DNA of 64,000 nt, taken from Planctomycetota bacterium (GTDB taxonomy: Bacteria; Planctomycetota; MHYJ01; JACQXL01). Position numbers and translations under genes: made by a program. This document shows positions 17,703 through 35,109 of this stretch, piece after piece (the first letter of the stretch is position 1; each line of letters opens with the position of its first letter). The notes beneath the pieces were generated by a model. It saw nothing but the letters and a program-made list of their open reading frames with translations. It searched no databases and was not told where the DNA came from. The stretch is taken from the NCBI GenBank assembly GCA_016235865.1, contig JACRIK010000001.1, positions 124,001-188,000 on the forward strand. Reading direction: 5' to 3'.

Positions 17703-19298
17703 TTACTCTTCTCTAAAGTAATTGATCAGCGATAAGGCAATCCAGACCAGGATAAACCCGCTATAAATCCAGAGGCAGAACTTGGGGAAGAAGTATCCGT
17801 ATTGGACATACCAGGTCAGCTTTGTTTCCCGGGGGACCTCACTGCGGATGATGCCGGAGGCGAGATATCCGATTTCCGCTTCAATCTTACCGGATGGGTG
17901 GATAATCTGCGAGATGCCCAGGGCGGTCGGCCGGACAATGGCGCGCCGGGTCTCTATGGCCCGGAACGGCGCGATGGTGGCGTGAATCTTGTGGGACAGT
18001 CCGGCCCAGCCGCTGACCTCCAGGGTCGGCGCCACGAATACCTCGACATCGTGCGCCACGACCAGCCAGCGGGAGATCCGGGTAAATCCGGATTCATAGC
18101 AGATGAAGATGCCGATTTTACCGAGCGGTGTGTCAAAGGCGCCCCATTTGTCGCCCGGAATGACCACGGTTTCCAGCAGCGGCACCGGCACGCGCTTGGC
18201 ATACTTGCCGATGACCTGGCCGTCCGGTCCCATCAAGGCCGCGTAATTGTGCACCCGGACCTGCTCCTCGGCCCGTTCAATGGTGCCGAAGACCAGATAG
18301 ATTTTCTTTTCCCTGATAAATGACTCTAATTTGCCCCGTTTGATTGGGTCATCAAGGATGTCATTTACCAACGCTTCGGGCCAGGCCACTAAAGCTTCTT
18401 GCTTGCCGTCCAGCGCCTGAGCGGTGCTGGTGATATAGGTGTCAAGCGAGTCGCGGCTGATTCCTTCCTGGACGACTACTACCGGAATCTCCTTTTGCGC
18501 CGCAGGCCGATATTGCTTGGGCAAATACGACTCCCGGGTTATCCCGTAGACCAGAATGACGGCCAGTATCAGGACCGCAAGAGCCGGATGCAGGAAACTC
18601 CATTTGAGTTTGCGGATGTATTTCAGGAAGAACCAGGCCAGCAGGGCGTTGACCGTGACAATCAGGAAGGTCAGGCCGTAGACGCCGATGAGGTCGCAGA
18701 CCTGAATCAGGGTCAGGTAGGGCGACTGGGAATAGCCCAGGCTCAGCCAGGAGAACTTGAGCGAATAACTCTCGGAGCGGAAAAATTCTATGCCGGTCCA
18801 GAAGAACGGGATTAATGGGAAAGAACGGCGCAGTCCGATTTTCGAGGCGGCCAGCCAAACCGAGACGCTGAAGACCGCCAGGTAGAGAGAAAGGATATTG
18901 GCGACTAATATGCCGAAATCAAATATGGCGACTAAGAACGAAAGCGAGACGGTATAAAACACCACGCCGGTAATCAGGCCGCAGATGCCGGCCGTGCGCT
19001 GGTTGGGCGAGGTATAGATGGCAATCAGCAGAGGCACCAGCGCCACCCAGCCCAACAGGCCAAAACTCAGGGGCGGGAAGGAAATTATCAGGAGCAGTCC
19101 GGAAATACCGGCCAGGATAAACCGGAACCATTTGGTGCGGTAGAGCAGGCGGACGCCCAGGTAATTAAGGGTCTTGTTGTCCGTATGTTTTATGGCCTGC
19201 TCATACTGAGGCGGCTTGGCCTGGACCGCCGGCTCTTTGACTGCCCCGGAATGCGATTCGGGCTGCTTGGATGATTCTGGTTTGGTATCAGTAGCCAT
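17703..19298 (-). CDS. lnt: Apolipoprotein N-acyltransferase
   Basis: It adds the third acyl chain to the N-terminal Cys of lipoproteins at the outer face of the inner membrane. An unusual hydrophilic N-terminal extension of about 55 residues precedes the multi-helix domain (ISGLLLIISFPPLSFGLLGW, typical of Lnt). A C-terminal nitrilase-fold domain follows, with catalytic Glu in AWPEALVND, Lys in YAKRVPVP and Cys in FICYESG. Conserved RAIETRRAIVRPTALGIS is also present. Its presence implies an outer membrane and agrees with the several lipobox proteins here. The start fits a promoter that places the transcript start on this ATG. It is convergent with the kinase gene, 6 bp apart. Confidence 0.93.
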   Translation of the reverse strand: MATDTKPESSKQPESHSGAVKEPAVQAKPPQYEQAIKHTDNKTLNYLGVRLLYRTKWFRFILAGISGLLLIISFPPLSFGLLGWVALVPLLIAIYTSPNQRTAGICGLITGVVFYTVSLSFLVAIFDFGILVANILSLYLAVFSVSVWLAASKIGLRRSFPLIPFFWTGIEFFRSESYSLKFSWLSLGYSQSPYLTLIQVCDLIGVYGLTFLIVTVNALLAWFFLKYIRKLKWSFLHPALAVLILAVILVYGITRESYLPKQYRPAAQKEIPVVVVQEGISRDSLDTYITSTAQALDGKQEALVAWPEALVNDILDDPIKRGKLESFIREKKIYLVFGTIERAEEQVRVHNYAALMGPDGQVIGKYAKRVPVPLLETVVIPGDKWGAFDTPLGKIGIFICYESGFTRISRWLVVAHDVEVFVAPTLEVSGWAGLSHKIHATIAPFRAIETRRAIVRPTALGISQIIHPSGKIEAEIGYLASGIIRSEVPRETKLTWYVQYGYFFPKFCLWIYSGFILVWIALSLINYFREE

Positions 19299-19378: not shown

Positions 19379-20377
19379 ATGGTGTTAGATGAAAATACCG
19401 GCCTGCAGGCGCCAATCAATCCGCCTAATAACAAGTCAAACCCCAAGAATTCACGCCTGGCCAAGGTTACTTTTATATTGGGGTTAATCGGGATTGTGCT
19501 TCTGGCTCTATCGTTTGTCGCACCGGCTTTAATCATACCAGCCCGGAGATCAATGGACAATTATTTTATACTTATGGCAATCGTCGGAATTACTGCGCTC
19601 TTGGGGCTTTTACTGGCGCTGGTCAGCATAATCATGGGAATAATCTCACTAATCATGATTAGGAAAAGCAAGGGTATGTTGCGAGGCAAGGGCTGGGCCA
19701 TCAGCGGATTACTGATGGGACTGATTCCGTTACTTTTGATTGGCGGGCTTATCATTTATGGTTTTGTCATGGCTGCATCAGCCAGCCGTTCGTATTCGGC
19801 CAAACCGTTTGACCCGTCCCAATACAAAGGCGCCACCGGCTCGATTGTCCTGCCGTATAAAGGCGAATCAGTATTGACACTGTATGGAAAAGGGGAGAGT
19901 ATCAGGTTAACCACTGCCGACGGGACAATTAAAACGCCGGTGGGTGACTATACGGTTTCGTCATACGAGGCCAGCGGCCAGGATGAGAAAAATACCAAAT
20001 GGACCGCCAGTAGCTACCCGCGCAGTAGCCGTGTAGTAGTTAAGGACGGGACTCCCGCCCACTTGGCAATCGGGCCGCCATTTATGGCTTCAGTTGATGT
20101 CAAAAGCGGACCAGGCAACCAGGTATCAATGACCTTTAATCTGAAGGATAATGCCGGCAATTCATTTACGATTTATAATAGCGAGCCGTCCTTCCAGGTC
20201 ATCTCCCAATCAGGCGATACGCTCTGGCAGGGCAAGTTCCAGTTCGGCTGAGGCGGCACCTGCGCGTATTCCGGGAGAATACCAGACAATGTCAAGGGCG
20301 AGGTGACTGTTCGCCCAGCGCTTAAAAAGGGGCCGTTTGAGATAACGATTAAAGATACCAACTGGCTCAGGGAATAG
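19379..20377 (+). CDS. DUF4190-like membrane protein with an in-frame TGA (possible selenoprotein)
   Basis: The uninterrupted part is 290 residues: a Pro/Asn-rich cytosolic start, three hydrophobic helices (ILGLIGIVLLALSFVAPAL, FILMAIVGITALLGLLLALV, GLIPLLLIGGLIIYGFVMA) of DUF4190 type, and a soluble domain beginning KGATGSIVLPYKGESVL. A TGA at 20249-20251 interrupts FQFG-stop-GGTCAYSGRIP. The same frame then runs 41 codons that look like the natural end of the domain (GEVTVRPALKKGPFEITIKD) to a TAG at 20377, 8 bp before the convergent neighbour. A 6-bp hairpin, GTATTC-CGGGA-GAATAC, sits 14 nt after the TGA, within the accepted geometry for bacterial SECIS elements. Either selenocysteine, or a recent nonsense mutation leaving a 290-aa product. 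Confidence 0.6.
20266..20282 (+). promoter_or_regulatory. Candidate SECIS-like hairpin after the in-frame TGA
   Basis: The stem GTATTC/GAATAC is perfect, with a 5-nt loop CGGGA carrying G at loop position 2. The loop starts 20 nt after the TGA, inside the 16-37 nt window usually required. The stem is short, so chance is possible. Confidence 0.35.
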
Positions 20378-20385
20378 GCGATTTA

Positions 20386-20817
20386 CTAAGCAGGGGAGGA
20401 CGACACTTCGGAGGACCGACCTTTTCTGGGCGTCCTGATGATATTAGATTTAACCAGCGAGATAAAATTCTGGCCGCTTATCAGGCCTAATTCCAGTTGA
20501 TATTCCATATCAGGCAGCACGATCAGATAATAATTACCCTGAACATTGCCAAGGTGCTCCGGCCTCGGTAACTCGATATCAGAGAATTCTTTCCGGAACA
20601 GGTTATGCGTCCTGAGAAGCCATTTGACCGCGGCGGGCTTTAGGTCGCGCAGCCTGAATATTTCCGGCACCATCTGGGTAGAGAGTTCCCAGTAGGCAAA
20701 GATGCATTCCGGGTCGCGAATTAAGGCGACCAGCACCGCCTGATTATAGGTGTCCGGCAGCGGCGGGCCGTAGTCCAGATAGATTGACGCCTGGTCCGGC
20801 TCAATATGTTTTTCCAT
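20386..20817 (-). CDS. DUF4912 domain protein
   Basis: A 143-aa protein with the DUF4912 hallmarks: a Tyr/Pro-rich start (YLDYGPPLPDTYNQ), VALIRDPECIFAYWELS and a C-terminal YYLIVLPDMEYQLELGLISG. The fold is thought to be a carbohydrate-binding-like sandwich. DUF4912 genes often neighbour GH57 and glycogen genes, as here. The ATG lies two bases after the GH57 stop without its own Shine-Dalgarno, so translation is coupled. The function is unknown; a role in alpha-glucan metabolism is an inference from context. The frame extends 14 codons upstream, but that overlaps GH57. Confidence 0.85.
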   Translation of the reverse strand: MEKHIEPDQASIYLDYGPPLPDTYNQAVLVALIRDPECIFAYWELSTQMVPEIFRLRDLKPAAVKWLLRTHNLFRKEFSDIELPRPEHLGNVQGNYYLIVLPDMEYQLELGLISGQNFISLVKSNIIRTPRKGRSSEVSSSPA

Positions 20818-20819
20818 AC

Positions 20820-22970
20820 TTAGATGAATTTGACTCTCTTGGCAATCCGGACCTGCCACTTCTCCTGAGGTTTAAGATGGATTTCCCAGCCAGGCAATAT
20901 TACGGATGACTGGTAAACCAGTTCAAAGCCGCCTTCGGACTGAGAAACGGTCTGGATCGGGAAATACCATATCCGGGACGGTTTAGTCAAGTCAAATGAG
21001 ATGTCTATTTTCTGGAATAAATCCTGGATGCCGAATATTTTCTCATTAGCGGCCTCGCCCTGGCTGATGAGCGGCCCGAGGTTTTTATTACGGCTGCTAT
21101 AGTAGAACCGGTCATGGGCATTGCCGGCTAACATCGAAAGATTAAACTCCACGGCAAACACGGCCTCAATCGGTTCCGGGCCGGTATTGGTTATTTCATA
21201 GTCCATCTGCAGGGATTTAGGGTCGTCGAAAGCAAAGGAGATATTTTTACTTACCTGTACTGGATATGATTTGCCGGCTTGTCGGACGAATCCGTCACGC
21301 GCGAACTTTATTGCGGCTTTCTTTAATGGGATTGAGGTTTTATACTCACCTGACAGGAAATCGCCTTGTTCCGCATAGTGGCAGCGGGCAAAACCATCCA
21401 GCGAAGTGTCTTTAGCGATAAAATGGTCCAGGCAGCTCTGCCTCGGGTAGTTGTCGTAATAGAGCAGGTTTTCCAGCCCCTTGGTCTTACTGATAACCAG
21501 GTCGTGGATGGTAGCGACATTGGTAACCGAGTTCTGTGCCTGGGCTTCAAGGATTTTCTTATGGTATGATTCCTGCCGGCGCCTGATGGTGGCGAGCGGA
21601 TTAAATCTCTTGGGGATGACATCAAGTTCGTAGAGCGCGCCGCCCTGGGCCGGCTTGAAATAGCAGTTAAGGAACTCGTTGGAATAGCGGATTTCCGGAT
21701 AGCCGTCATAGTCTAGGTCGGCGATCTCAAGTAAGACGTTATCGTGGTTCTGTGCTTTGCCGTTCGGTTTGGCAGGCGCAATCTGACGCAGTAGCTCTTC
21801 AGCCGCAATCAGGTGGTTATACATCGCGTGCCTGAGGTGGGGGAGATAGAACCCGCCGAATACGCCGTGCCAAAAGGCGTCATTGCCCTGGCCCCGGTAG
21901 AGTTCCAGTTGCGCCGGTGGCAGCGCGGCCTGCGACTTTTTATCCGGTTTCTTATCCGATAGCGATGCCAGCACCTGGCTCACCTGCATCATTTTTGAAT
22001 ACATCAGGTTGATTTCCGGATACTTGACGAAGAAGTTGCGCCAGAATCCGCCCGGATTCAGGGCGAATTCCGAAGGCGGCAGATGTTGTTTATAATCTTC
22101 ATAGACCATTGAGGCCTCGTTTGACAGAACCCATTCGGTCATCTCGCGGTATGAGCCGGCCGGGATGTAGGCCTTGCCGACCGGCCTTGCCTTGTCAATC
22201 ACCTCTGAAAAGGTGGTGATATTAATCCAGGGATTGGCGTTTAATGACTGCAGAAAGCGTTCCAACCAATTATTACCGTAGCAGTGCTCGTAGGTCTTGG
22301 GCCAGAGCCCGAATTTTTCGCCGTCGTCCGCATAGCAGATAACCGCGTTTGCGGATTTATTATTATGGTTAAACTGCGCCAGGTAGTTTATGCTCTCCTG
22401 CGGTTCTTTAAACGGAATGGAGTAGCGCAGTTTTTCCGGGATCGGGAAGATTCCCAGCGTATGTCCCTGGTCTTCGGTAATAAAGTAGCCGGTGAGTTCT
22501 TTGGATAAGAATCCGGCAGTCCTGAAATGGAAATCGTCCAGGATGGTGAATTCCACGCCGGCCTGAGCCAGAGGCTTAGTCAACGACTGTTCCCAGGCCC
22601 GTTCAGCCAGCCAGATACCGCGCGGGCGTTTGCCAAAGAGTTTGGCCAGATAATCGCTAAAGGCGGTAATCTGGCCGATTTTGTCGCGGTCCGTCAGCAT
22701 GGTCAGGATTGGCTCATAGAAACCGCCCCCGATAATCTCCACTCGATCCTCCGAAACCATTTTCTGTAGGCGGCTGATGAACCTGGGATGGGTTCGCTCA
22801 AGGTATTGCAGCAGGGGACCGGTATAGTGGATGCAAAACCTGATTTGGGGGAACCGGTCCATCACGTCAATAAACGGCGCGTAGGCCTGTTTGTAGGCGG
22901 ATTCCATCACCTCGTCAAAATTACCCACCGGCTGGTGGTTGTGGACGCAGAAGATAAAGTTCACAGGCAT
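20820..22970 (-). CDS. GH57 alpha-glucanotransferase/amylase
   Basis: A glycoside hydrolase family 57 enzyme acting on alpha-1,4-glucans. It has HNHQPVGNFDE at the N-terminus, the nucleophile Glu in WLAERAWE near residue 125, and the acid/base Asp in YADDGEKFGLWPKT near residue 215. A C-terminal beta-sandwich region of about 300 residues follows, as in the 4-alpha-glucanotransferase of Thermococcus. No signal peptide is visible, so glycogen or maltodextrin processing in the cytosol is likely. The start at 22970 (MPVNFIF) was chosen; 20 further codons are open but lie in a dispersed repeat. It forms a unit with the DUF4912 gene. Confidence 0.9.
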   Translation of the reverse strand: MPVNFIFCVHNHQPVGNFDEVMESAYKQAYAPFIDVMDRFPQIRFCIHYTGPLLQYLERTHPRFISRLQKMVSEDRVEIIGGGFYEPILTMLTDRDKIGQITAFSDYLAKLFGKRPRGIWLAERAWEQSLTKPLAQAGVEFTILDDFHFRTAGFLSKELTGYFITEDQGHTLGIFPIPEKLRYSIPFKEPQESINYLAQFNHNNKSANAVICYADDGEKFGLWPKTYEHCYGNNWLERFLQSLNANPWINITTFSEVIDKARPVGKAYIPAGSYREMTEWVLSNEASMVYEDYKQHLPPSEFALNPGGFWRNFFVKYPEINLMYSKMMQVSQVLASLSDKKPDKKSQAALPPAQLELYRGQGNDAFWHGVFGGFYLPHLRHAMYNHLIAAEELLRQIAPAKPNGKAQNHDNVLLEIADLDYDGYPEIRYSNEFLNCYFKPAQGGALYELDVIPKRFNPLATIRRRQESYHKKILEAQAQNSVTNVATIHDLVISKTKGLENLLYYDNYPRQSCLDHFIAKDTSLDGFARCHYAEQGDFLSGEYKTSIPLKKAAIKFARDGFVRQAGKSYPVQVSKNISFAFDDPKSLQMDYEITNTGPEPIEAVFAVEFNLSMLAGNAHDRFYYSSRNKNLGPLISQGEAANEKIFGIQDLFQKIDISFDLTKPSRIWYFPIQTVSQSEGGFELVYQSSVILPGWEIHLKPQEKWQVRIAKRVKFI

Positions 22971-23134: not shown

Positions 23135-23860
23135 CTAATCAGCCACGCGCCATCTTCGGCCGGCCGGGCCGTCTACTCCGGCGGGATTTACTCCCGGCCA
23201 GTCCAGTCCGCCGGTTGCCGTGGTTTTCCACGGACCGGTAGTCAACCCGGTATCAGTGGCAAAAACCGTGCCCGCCTCATTGACAATAAGCGAGTTGACT
23301 CCGCTGGTCCCATAAACATCGGGCGCAGCCATGAAACCGTACCGGTTATTATTGCAGGCCGGAATAGTATTGGTTCCAACGGTATTGACTCTATAGGCGG
23401 TACCGCCCGGCGCATCAAGGGTCATAGCCCGGAACCAATAGCCGGATTTTGTTCCGGTCAAAACAGAGGTCCAGACTTCCACCTGAATGCCTCCAAACGG
23501 CAGAATCCCTCCGGTTAAATCGGCCGGAACCGCATCAGCCTTGGCTACATCAATCGGAATAAAGGCGACTTTATTGACGTTATCTGCGCGGAACATCCGG
23601 TGTATGCAGGAGACGTCATATGTCCAAAAATCCTTAATGGCATTTCCGTCGGCGTCCTGCTGCGACCACATTGATTCGGCATTGGTCAGCAGCCGCAATG
23701 ATGCGACAGCAGAATTCTCATTGGCAGAAATACGGCCGGTCAGGAGATTGGGAATTGCAATCGCCGCAATCACGGCGATAATGGCGATAACAATCATCAG
23801 TTCTATGAGGGTAAATCCGTGCTTATCCTGAACCAAACCGGTTTGAGATTTGTTATACAT
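23135..23860 (-). CDS. Type IV prepilin-like / major pseudopilin, second of two
   Basis: A leader of about 14 residues ends in Lys-His-Gly, then FTLIELMIVIAIIAVIAAIAIPNLL: the prepilin peptidase site G/F with Glu at +5, as in PilA/GspG-type pilins. The globular part (about 200 residues) includes ANENSAVASLRLLTNAESMW and a Trp-rich C-terminus (WKTTATGGLDWPGVNP) shared with the neighbouring pilin at 23935. The start at 23860 has GGAG nearby. The 241-aa length, with large C-terminal domain, is more like Planctomycetota DUF1559/GspG-type pseudopilins than classical pilin. It is downstream of its paralogue and likely shares the sigma-54 promoter, with a hairpin in between. Confidence 0.9.
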   Translation of the reverse strand: MYNKSQTGLVQDKHGFTLIELMIVIAIIAVIAAIAIPNLLTGRISANENSAVASLRLLTNAESMWSQQDADGNAIKDFWTYDVSCIHRMFRADNVNKVAFIPIDVAKADAVPADLTGGILPFGGIQVEVWTSVLTGTKSGYWFRAMTLDAPGGTAYRVNTVGTNTIPACNNNRYGFMAAPDVYGTSGVNSLIVNEAGTVFATDTGLTTGPWKTTATGGLDWPGVNPAGVDGPAGRRWRVAD

Positions 23861-23876
23861 AAATCTCCATTTGGTG

Positions 23877-23916
23877 TAAAGGGCGCCCCGATTTGCCGTC
23901 GGGACGCCCTTTTTCA
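23877..23916 (-). terminator. Hairpin between the two prepilin genes (attenuator-like)
   Basis: On the minus strand GGGCG-T-CCCGA faces TCGGG-G-CGCCC, followed by only TTTA; on the plus strand it ends in TTTTT. Between co-oriented genes this suggests partial termination, giving more of the first prepilin than the second, or mRNA end protection. Confidence 0.55.
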
Positions 23917-23934
23917 AATACGTACCGGGTAGTT

Positions 23935-24645
23935 TTAGTCAGCCACGCGCCAGTTCCTGCCGCCGGGTCCAGCTGTACCAGTTGGATTTACGCTGGGCCA
24001 GTTTAAGCCGCCAGCTGCTGTGGTTAGCCATCTATTGGCTTGTCCACCGGTATCATTGGCATAGATGGTGCCTTCCTGGTTCACGATAAACGAGTTAATT
24101 CCGCTTGTGCCATAGGCATCCGGAGCCGCCATAAAACCAAATCGGCTGTTGTTACAAGATACTAATGCTGCTCCTCCTACTCCGACATTATTCACGTTAT
24201 AAAGATCTACGGCAACTGAACCATTTGTCAACGCCTGGAACCAGAAGCCGGATTTCACGGTGCTAACAATGGCTGTCGGAGTTGCCGATGACCAGTCCTC
24301 CATAAGCGGGCCGGTGGCACCAAACACATCATCAACCACTTCAGCATTGTCGGCCTTGGCCAAATCTATGGGGATAAAGGCCACTTTGGTTGAGCCATCC
24401 GCGCGATACATACGATGCATACAGGAGACATCGCGGGTCCAGTAATCCTTTATGCCATTACCGTCAGCGTCCTGTTGCAGCCAGACCGCTTCCGATGAGG
24501 TTATCAATTTTAGGGCTGCTACCGCAGAATTCTCATTGGCCGACATACGGCCGCTGAGCAGGTTCGGAATCGCGATAGCCGCGATAATCGCGATGATAGC
24601 AATAACTATCATCAGTTCAATCAAGGTAAAACCTTGTTTACGCAT
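23935..24645 (-). CDS. Type IV prepilin-like / major pseudopilin, first of two
   Basis: The protein starts MRKQG/FTLIELMIVIAI: a five-residue leader, the G/F prepilin peptidase site and Glu at +5. The long hydrophobic helix is followed by a globular domain with LQQDADGNGIKDYW, MHRMYRAD and FGFMAAPDAYGTSGINSFIVN, about 60 per cent similar by eye to the neighbour at 23135. AAAGGAG is 6 nt before this ATG, making it the true start; a frame extension to 24708 runs through the leader palindrome. Transcription probably starts at the sigma-54 promoter at 24944, giving a leader of about 270 nt. Pili or a type II secretion pseudopilus are both possible. Confidence 0.92.
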   Translation of the reverse strand: MRKQGFTLIELMIVIAIIAIIAAIAIPNLLSGRMSANENSAVAALKLITSSEAVWLQQDADGNGIKDYWTRDVSCMHRMYRADGSTKVAFIPIDLAKADNAEVVDDVFGATGPLMEDWSSATPTAIVSTVKSGFWFQALTNGSVAVDLYNVNNVGVGGAALVSCNNSRFGFMAAPDAYGTSGINSFIVNQEGTIYANDTGGQANRWLTTAAGGLNWPSVNPTGTAGPGGRNWRVAD

Positions 24646-24661
24646 AGTTTTTACTCCTTTA

Positions 24662-24681
24662 GAGTCAGTAATTACTGACTC
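24662..24681. promoter_or_regulatory. Perfect 20-bp palindrome before the pilin RBS
   Basis: GAGTCAGTAA/TTACTGACTC is a perfect, loopless palindrome five bases upstream of the AAAGGAG of the first prepilin. In RNA it can only form a tight hairpin next to the RBS; in DNA it suits a dimeric regulator. Confidence 0.65.
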
Positions 24682-24684
24682 TTC

Positions 24685-24860
24685 TGGCCCCGAAGTATTC
24701 GGGACCATTGTTTATAATGTTAGTGGTCCCGCCCGTACGGGTCGGGTCCAGCAACAACATAGATATCACTACTCTCTATGCCTTCTATGTCCCGACACCT
24801 TTCGTCGGGATAAGAGATTGTAACGCCCATACGGGCTGACAATCTCTAATAAGTTAGGTT
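24685..24860 (-). ncRNA. Structured 5' leader of the prepilin mRNA
   Basis: The leader contains several strong hairpins in succession: AGAGATTGTCAG/..TTACAATCTCT, TCCCGAC-GAAAGG-TGTCGGGA, and GGACCCG/CGGGACC-type stems. Some arms resemble the genome's dispersed GTCCC/GGGAC palindromes, so part may be repeat insertion. No riboswitch class is recognised. Confidence 0.4.
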
Positions 24861-32998: not shown

Positions 32999-34072
32999 CT
33001 ACTTTGCCTCAGGTCTTTCCAGTGGGCCAAGCACGATGCTCTCAAACTGAATCCGACCGCCTTTAACCGAAAACCCGATGGCCGGAGCTTCTTTAATGCC
33101 ATTCATCCAGGTAAGTCCTTCGCTCACCGACTTTCCGTTGATGTTAAAAGTGCAGAACTTCTCATCCCGGCTCATTTTTATCTGGTTCGCGCCCGGACGC
33201 AACATTGCCTTAGGGATGGTGTAGACGCCGGCAAACTGGTATTTGCCGAGGTCGGTCATGCCCTTGGTAAAACTAAGTTCCAGGTTGATGGTCTTGGAGT
33301 TTTTGGCATCTATAAAGAATTTAAGGGTAAGCGAAAACTCCTCGGGCGGCGTGCCTTTCCATTTTATGGAAGCGGCTTTGGATGTTTCGGGCTGGGCCAC
33401 GAGCTGCCCTTGGGTTATTTTCCAGCAGTCCGGCGGGCCGACCTCCCAGTTGCTGAGGTCTTTGCCGTTAAAGAGGTACTGCGGGCGGACCAGGGCGTTT
33501 TTCTTGCGCTCTTTTTCCTTCCGGCTATCGACCACGGACTGGTCTATCTTTGCGGAGAGCTCCCGGGCCGGTTTGTTCGCCGGGTCAATCTTGAAAATGC
33601 TTTCGGTAATCGTATAGGTGAATCGCTGGTATTTCTTATTGAGGCATTCGCCGCCTAATGCCAATAATCCCGAAATATGGTTGTTTTTTATCCTGGCAAA
33701 CCGGGTTCCATTCAGGTCAACTCTTTCCAGCGAGCGGGAAACAGAGCCGAGTAATTCATCCTCATCCCTGGTCCGGGCCGGGTTTTCCGAGAGCGATTTC
33801 ATAGCCAGCCGGTAATTGCGCACGGCTCGCTTATCGTTTTTAAGTTTCTCATAACAATCGCCCAGGCGAAAGCGGGCGGCCGGAAAGTCCTTGCGGTAGG
33901 AAAGCGCCTTAGTGAACTTCTCCGCGGCCTCGTCGTTCTTACCCTGTTTAGACAGCGATAACCATGATTGGTAATAGACCTCGGATAATTCATTGTTGTC
34001 GGCCGGAATAACGGTGTTACAGATTGCGAATAAAAGTGCCAGGACAGCCGGTAATATTTTGCGGTCCATCAT
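32999..34072 (-). CDS. TPR plus DUF1080-like secreted protein, fifth of the run
   Basis: Signal peptide (RKILPAVLALLFAICNTVIPA), then TPRs (SEVYYQSWLSLSKQGKNDEAAEKFTKALSYRKDFPAARF in pieces), a helical linker, and one DUF1080-like/laminin-G-type sandwich starting YLFNGKDLSNWEVGPPDCW. DUF1080 domains are glycoside-binding or 3-keto-disaccharide hydrolase folds; catalytic residues cannot be judged here. The gene overlaps the preceding one by 4 bp (ATGA) and closes a series of five similar genes read from 39429. Confidence 0.85.
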   Translation of the reverse strand: MMDRKILPAVLALLFAICNTVIPADNNELSEVYYQSWLSLSKQGKNDEAAEKFTKALSYRKDFPAARFRLGDCYEKLKNDKRAVRNYRLAMKSLSENPARTRDEDELLGSVSRSLERVDLNGTRFARIKNNHISGLLALGGECLNKKYQRFTYTITESIFKIDPANKPARELSAKIDQSVVDSRKEKERKKNALVRPQYLFNGKDLSNWEVGPPDCWKITQGQLVAQPETSKAASIKWKGTPPEEFSLTLKFFIDAKNSKTINLELSFTKGMTDLGKYQFAGVYTIPKAMLRPGANQIKMSRDEKFCTFNINGKSVSEGLTWMNGIKEAPAIGFSVKGGRIQFESIVLGPLERPEAK

Positions 34073-35109
34073 TCAGGCGTTTCAATAGTCAGGTTGCGGA
34101 ATCTGGCGATATAACCCTGGGCATAGATGCCGATGACCGGGGTGTTATAAGGGTCCATCTTGCCGGAGCGGGTGATTTTGCCGCCTTCTTCAACCTTAAA
34201 TTGCGCGTCCTTGACGATAAATCTCACTTTTGCCCAGGTGCCGAGCCGGTTAAAGGTGCATTGAGCCCTTTGATTGGTTACGACGCTGACCGCCCCGGAA
34301 GTCCTGCTCTCACCGTAGGCAAAACTGATTTCGTAATTATTGGCGGTAATCCTTTTTTCCAGGAACATTTCCACGGAGAATGCATAATTTTTAGGCGGCG
34401 GCTTTGTCCACTGGATCAGACTCGGCTCGCCGGATGACTTGGCATTAAAAACCAGGCAGGATTTGTCAACGGTCCAGAGCTTCAACCAGACACTGGGTAT
34501 AACCAGGCCTTTTAAGTCGCTGCCGTTAAATAAGGTATAAGCCTTTCCGGACGTCGTTCTTTTCTGGGCGCCGCTGTTAACCTTCTCCAGTCCATCTAAG
34601 GCGGCCTTATTATTCGGGTCAACCTTAAGTATTTGCTTGTAAATCATTGAGCCCAAAAACAGATACTTCCGGGCGATGCAATCATTGGCAATGCCTGAAA
34701 GCCCGGAGATGTATTTATCCTTGATTTTTCCCGCCTCGTTGCCGGCCTCGTCAATTTTGGCCAGATTGCGGCGGGCGGCCTGCAGAATTTCCTTTTCCGC
34801 GTTAGTAGGTTCGAGATTATCCTCCAGGCCTCTAATGCCCAGCCGGTAGTTCTTTATGGCTGACCTGGTATCGCCGGTTTTCTCGCAGCATTCGCCCAGT
34901 TTGCAGAGCGCCGGAGCAAAGTCTCGCCAGTAGGAAAGGGCTTTGTTGAATTTTTCAGCCGCCTCATCGTATTTACTTTGCTTGAGAAGCGCCAGGCCTG
35001 ACTGGTAATAGACATTGGCTAAATCGCTGTTATCATCAGCGAAGGCGCCGGCGGCGTGCGCAAAAAGCGCCAGCAGAATACCGAACACTAACATTTTATT
35101 ATTCGTCAT
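34069..35109 (-). CDS. TPR plus DUF1080-like secreted protein, fourth of the run
   Basis: Same architecture as its neighbours: signal peptide ending AAGAFA/DDNSDLANVYYQSG, about two TPRs, a linker and one sandwich domain (YTLFNGSDLKGLVIPSVWLKLW). The usual Gly-Lys in the NGKDL motif is Ser here and the following W is replaced, so this copy is the most diverged. The start overlaps the upstream stop by 11 bp, with ATGACGAATAA serving as start in one frame and stop in the other. Confidence 0.83.
   Translation of the reverse strand: MTNNKMLVFGILLALFAHAAGAFADDNSDLANVYYQSGLALLKQSKYDEAAEKFNKALSYWRDFAPALCKLGECCEKTGDTRSAIKNYRLGIRGLEDNLEPTNAEKEILQAARRNLAKIDEAGNEAGKIKDKYISGLSGIANDCIARKYLFLGSMIYKQILKVDPNNKAALDGLEKVNSGAQKRTTSGKAYTLFNGSDLKGLVIPSVWLKLWTVDKSCLVFNAKSSGEPSLIQWTKPPPKNYAFSVEMFLEKRITANNYEISFAYGESRTSGAVSVVTNQRAQCTFNRLGTWAKVRFIVKDAQFKVEEGGKITRSGKMDPYNTPVIGIYAQGYIARFRNLTIETPE

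Follow-up and report, generated by a model that had tools for sequence, protein, structure and literature searches.

An in-frame UGA predicted to encode selenocysteine places a DUF4190-like planctomycete protein in an apparently undescribed selenoprotein family

An open reading frame (ORF) of 290 codons occupies positions 19379–20251 of the window, i.e., the whole stretch of 64,000 nucleotides that was analyzed, and is terminated by an in-frame TGA (20249–20251). Past this TGA, the same frame continues for 41 sense codons, encoding the peptide GGTCAYSGRIPDNVKGEVTVRPALKKGPFEITIKDTNWLRE, until a TAG at 20375–20377, which lies 8 nt before the end of a convergent DUF4912 gene (20386–20859, reverse strand). 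Both the continuation and its end just short of the convergent gene had been part of the original prediction, and both hold. Read through the TGA, the gene spans 19379–20377 on the forward strand and would encode 332 residues with selenocysteine (Sec, U) at position 291, a reading that rests on homologues. The divergent neighbor on the other side (17703–19298, reverse strand) encodes apolipoprotein N-acyltransferase, Lnt (LNT_N, 4.9e-30); the two neighbors serve as context only. Residues 68–121 (19580–19741) form a membrane segment that matches PF13828 (DUF4190) with 31.1 bits, below the Pfam gathering cut-off of 35 bits. The sequence supports the label “DUF4190-like” only, not membership in DUF4190. 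The conserved Sec-bearing domain, delineated by alignments A1 and A5, covers approximately residues 152–332 (19832–20374) and is predicted by a low-confidence model to be all-beta. Four residues past the TGA is a Cys (U-x3-C). A hairpin of the bacterial SECIS (bSECIS) type, GUAUUC-CGGGA-GAAUAC, is found at 20266–20282, and its 6-bp stem, its 5-nt loop and its start 14 nt past the TGA are as originally described; the G is at loop position 2. Elsewhere in the window (23135–24708, reverse strand), there is a tandem pair of type IV pilin/pseudopilin-like genes whose N-termini are very similar.

The features of the window gene are weak when taken alone. The energy of the hairpin was no better than that of shuffled sequences (z 0.2 to 0.3), and its comparison with synonymous-codon resampling was not significant (p 0.24). 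The isolated 17-nt hairpin has an energy of -3.2 kcal/mol, while the limit given in PMC13188914 is -7.5. Window segments of 39 and 52 nt fold at -7.9 and -12, respectively, on the same scale; the optimum fold of the 52-nt segment does not include the 20266–20282 hairpin. Hairpin energy was dropped as stand-alone evidence, since it fell within both shuffles and codon resampling. An open frame of 41 codons past a TGA is not rare either: the window ORF at 34069–35109 (reverse strand) has a terminal TGA followed by 89 sense codons in frame; this case, which has a 4-nt overlap with the next gene, is probably due to chance. TGA is an ordinary stop elsewhere in the window, since 12 of its 42 long ORFs, including the selenoprotein gene, end in TGA; this agrees with the earlier claim that the code is not changed. 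Because the open frame and the hairpin of the window gene are by themselves within chance, the case for Sec rests on the comparison with homologues. Thus, the earlier reading of a new selenoprotein is supported by the homologues and not by the evidence of the gene itself.

A first protein search in 199 Planctomycetota relatives recovered divergent proteins homologous to the C-terminal domain, and every one of them has a single in-frame TGA. When profile A1 was compared with 392 genomes of the phylum, 110 were matched, with many full-length domains carrying one TGA and a few carrying none; some of these matches were partial, in larger proteins without the Sec region. Hits that reached the Sec region, with TGA read through in translation, were deduplicated to form a set of 98 loci sharing 20–30% identity. 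At the column of the window TGA, 93 of the 98 loci had TGA and two had Cys, while Arg, Tyr, and Gly were each found once, in degenerate copies. Overlapping loci led to double counting of at least two genes, from G290 and the window's genome, and L129 and L130 were scored as U after correction of a one-residue alignment shift. The profile is biased toward the Sec column because U was modelled as C; individual profile matches were nonetheless significant across the whole domain. In alignment A5 (68 rows), U is the sole invariant residue and the next residue is G in over 90%. For most members, the real stop is found 36–51 codons past U. The original prediction had proposed that TGA recurring in homologues, or Cys in its place, would support Sec: approximately 90 divergent homologues repeat the TGA at that position, and two have Cys there. 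None of the outcomes it had named as refuting, such as another residue at the site, was found, R, Y, and G being limited to the three degenerate homologues. The Cys four residues past Sec, to which it also drew attention, is real in the window gene but is not family-wide, as a Cys occurs within 8 residues past U in only 41 of 93 members; for the same reason, this Cys was rejected as a universal resolving residue.

The hairpin, too, draws its support from comparison across the family. Its mean energy in 92 genes was -8.4 kcal/mol, compared with -4.4 kcal/mol in resampled codons (Wilcoxon p 3e-14), and 81 of 92 Sec members had at least five of six pairs at one of the observed registers. In class A (U...C, 29 sequences), 90% of the six pairs were formed at one register and no more than 60% at any other. 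In class B (34 sequences, motif GUGGGG.AS, most without a nearby Cys), the stem axis is slightly shifted and 86% were paired; a third, mixed group of 29 sequences had no single common hairpin register. Covariation was counted in ungapped alignments of 29 sequences per class, the class B set being restricted to sequences that share the class B register. Paired cells made up 89.1% in class A, with a score of 0.677 compared with at most 0.166 for slid partners, and 90.6% in class B (0.546 compared with at most 0.233). Changes on both sides of the stem were found in 46 cells in class A and 33 cells in class B, as opposed to 17 and 10 in the respective shuffles. The slide control is the safer of the two, since relatedness inflates the shuffle comparison. 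The window stem GUAUUC/GAAUAC is itself a compensated form of the common GUACUC/GAGUAC. Thus, the bSECIS check proposed in the original prediction came out in its favor, with a hairpin at a fixed position across homologues and compensatory changes in its stem. In the two Cys homologues, at most 3 and 4 of the six hairpin pairs can form. The apparent motif YSWRVP should not be taken as catalytic, because it is largely encoded by the hairpin (UAC UCG UGG CGA GUA C).

The genome of the window, 96% complete at 2.67 Mb, carries tRNA-Sec (anticodon TCA), SelB, SelA (541 bits), and two SelD within approximately 8.5 kb of contig 3; every gene that the original prediction had suggested searching for is therefore present. 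One SelD has a TGA at its known Sec position (N-terminal CVGUAGK) and provides an internal positive control. Each of the 46 family-positive genomes examined has SelB, SelA, or tRNA-Sec. SelB exceeded the cut-off in 42 of these 46 genomes and in 94 of 153 other genomes (Fisher p 6e-5; the SelB-positive sum in this table differs by one from the search tally of 135). The four SelB-negative family genomes all have SelA over the cut-off, and tRNA-Sec with anticodon TCA is present in three of them. The clearest Cys homologue, in which the hairpin is lost, comes from G387, a genome that is 99% complete, lacks SelA, and has no tRNA-Sec above the cut-off, while its family-mate G290 has SelA and tRNA-Sec along with Sec forms. 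The second Cys homologue (L076) belongs to a genome (G192) that retains the Sec machinery, so the Cys forms are not all explained by loss of the machinery.

Seven genomes have family genes within or adjoining their sel clusters. One is that of the window, where a second Sec-bearing member (L133:10341–11375, reverse strand, contig 3) lies directly upstream of selD-selA on the same strand; this paralogue has a hydrophobic N-terminus and the sequence ...AFCVGUGGSINDYSGG. The gene order is member-selD-selA-selB in G002 and member-(SelD-CMD fusion)-selA-selB in G143. The start of a member is approximately 165 nt from tRNA-Sec in G290, a member and tRNA-Sec are divergently oriented in G030, and members adjoin selA/selB in G052 and G040. 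Several of the selA and selD calls in relatives are based on position and N-terminal sequence, without a profile, and the linkage was noticed post hoc, without a formal null.

The family extends beyond the phylum of the window. Among 240 genomes of Verrucomicrobiota, the phylum of Rubritalea, five matched, with seven members, all of which have TGA and all six hairpin pairs; tRNA-Sec and SelA are present in each of the five genomes. One of these members (EYGUGGTCRYSGRVPDNV) resembles the window protein (FGUGGTCAYSGRIPDNV). No family match was found in 35 further genomes, an arbitrary set that carries little weight, or by tblastn of plasmids. TGA-bearing members are present in a sizeable share of the sampled Planctomycetota genomes and, as far as sequence comparison can tell, the family is large, spanning Planctomycetota and some Verrucomicrobiota. 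In the Verrucomicrobiota genome G482, two members (L196) share a strand and are separated by approximately 2 kb; one of them runs on past the Sec domain into hydrophobic, membrane-like segments.

We hold with great confidence that 19379–20377 encodes a DUF4190-like, membrane-anchored selenoprotein of an undescribed family, with a UGA decoded by SelB, Sec-tRNA(UCA), and a bSECIS. In this process, SelB and Sec-tRNA(UCA) would insert Sec at UGA 20249, and the bacterial-type SECIS hairpin at 20266–20282 would direct the decoding. Computation has demonstrated the coding of Sec, the conservation of the hairpin, the family's dependence on Sec machinery, and its breadth. That the window TGA is decoded as Sec is almost certain as an inference from sequence; there is no protein-level or expression evidence.

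That the TGA is an ordinary stop, followed by a chance open frame or a decayed tail, is favored by the 89 open codons past another TGA in the window and by a hairpin that does not exceed shuffles. However, the TGA and the residues downstream are conserved in approximately 90 divergent homologues, whose tails are consistent in length, and the hairpin covaries across them, which makes an ordinary stop extremely unlikely. A recent nonsense mutation or a sequencing error has a negligible chance of explaining the TGA: the same TGA occurs in unrelated genomes of two phyla, and nothing speaks for an error beyond a single base in a draft genome. Since the inserted amino acid cannot be named from sequence alone, a changed code or programmed read-through might instead place Trp, Cys, or Arg at the UGA. 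This we consider very unlikely, because TGA serves normally as a stop in the window and is the final stop in 45 of 93 family genes, the family genomes have Sec machinery, the hairpin has the position and loop G of the bSECIS model in PMC13188914, and the residue that replaces Sec in a SelA-less genome is Cys. A different matter is whether the family has been described before and was missed by the profile libraries. Most subscription-journal papers, all preprints, and supplements were outside the literature compared, leaving room for an earlier description, but one is improbable. Among the 87 members scanned, no Pfam or NCBIfam model covered the Sec domain, and the NCBIfam selenoprotein models gave, at E 0.01, only a chance-level match to ExtJ (0.0036). 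Likewise, none of the 119 prokaryotic selenoprotein families catalogued in Table 1 of the 2026 review PMC13188914 agrees in name and motif, and no counterpart domain was found among them; for families that no Pfam or NCBIfam model represents, the comparison covered only motif and name.

The selenoprotein family thus appears to be undescribed. Planctomycetes are not mentioned in the main text of PMC13188914. Selenoproteins of planctomycete strains associated with Porphyra are reported in PMC4807772, and an individual family member might be listed in its supplementary candidate table. As described in PMC13188914, the Cys/Sec-pair discovery strategy takes Cys homologues as its starting point. The family may have been overlooked because it offers hardly any. 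Existing annotations of family genes are probably truncated, since gene callers that stop at UGA lose the conserved C-terminus. The family would expand the selenoproteome of Planctomycetota, and the scarcity of Cys forms suggests that Sec may not readily swap for Cys in it.

Decoding in the window appears to be standard. As in other bacterial Sec insertion (SelA/SelB/SelD, tRNA-Sec, bSECIS), the genome has the complete machinery, and the UGA is immediately followed by a hairpin whose first two loop positions include a G, 16–37 nt from the UGA; no difference was observed. The Sec-form SelD of the same genome, with TGA at its known Sec position, belongs to an unrelated protein family, and the family paralogue precedes the other selD of the genome. 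Selenoproteins with a thioredoxin (Trx) fold (thioredoxin-, peroxiredoxin-, and DsbA-like; UxxC or CxxU) likewise have a short motif that contains Sec, in some cases near a Cys. In contrast to these, the domain of the family is predicted, with low confidence, to be all-beta, the spacing is U-x3-C where that Cys exists, and over half of the members have no Cys within 8 residues past U; a Trx profile had no match in the family members scanned.

The family domain comprises approximately 180 residues, with a near-invariant U-G dipeptide usually 36–51 residues from the C-terminal end of the protein; besides the class B motif, the motif [YF]GUGG...C.YSW characterizes the family. It is joined to varying N-terminal halves: ankyrin, TPR, exo/endonuclease/phosphatase, laminin G, and DUF4190-like. 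A structure model of the window protein, made from the single sequence without homologues, was all-beta and poor (mean pLDDT 50); Foldseek with this model gave nothing at E 0.001 or better, and sequence-profile matches to Ig-like chains in the PDB were weak (E 0.002 to 0.01). An N-terminal hydrophobic stretch was found in 37 of 88 complete members by a crude hydrophobicity test, with start codons uncertain, and we infer that the domain is exported in many members. The Sec domain is probably an extracytoplasmic beta-sandwich with a U-G loop; neither fold nor location is established. The N-terminal domain of DsbD has an Ig-like fold with a redox Cys pair. This beta-sandwich carrying a redox pair is a possible analogy, and only that, as no sequence match was found.

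As to function, we lean slightly toward selenol redox chemistry, which is inferred. Members with a following Cys could shuttle a selenenyl-sulfide between U and that Cys, while members without it could perform single-selenol reduction or capture a metal or thiol; the existence of the latter disfavors a uniform U-C pair. Binding of a metal or of selenium is the main alternative to a redox role. A tentative idea, which we regard as unlikely, is that the domain is all-beta and extracytoplasmic, with near-obligatory Sec, spread by domain fusion and linked to the supply of selenium; since one copy leads a selD-selA operon, it may sense, bind, or deliver selenium beyond redox chemistry.

In L191–L194, non-Sec relatives of approximately 690–745 residues keep the upstream part of the domain, and the U loop is replaced by a Cys-free segment. 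The sel cluster of the window's genome (L133:2033–10261) has two selD copies, one of them in Sec form, and carries between selD2 and selB a homologue of the 2-hydroxyglutaryl-CoA dehydratase D-component and a polyferredoxin-like 4Fe-4S protein. Finally, L137:3950–5554 and L082:13923–15545 encode SelD with a fused C-terminal carboxymuconolactone decarboxylase/AhpD-like (CMD) domain, and in the two genomes concerned this SelD-CMD fusion adjoins sel genes as well as family members.
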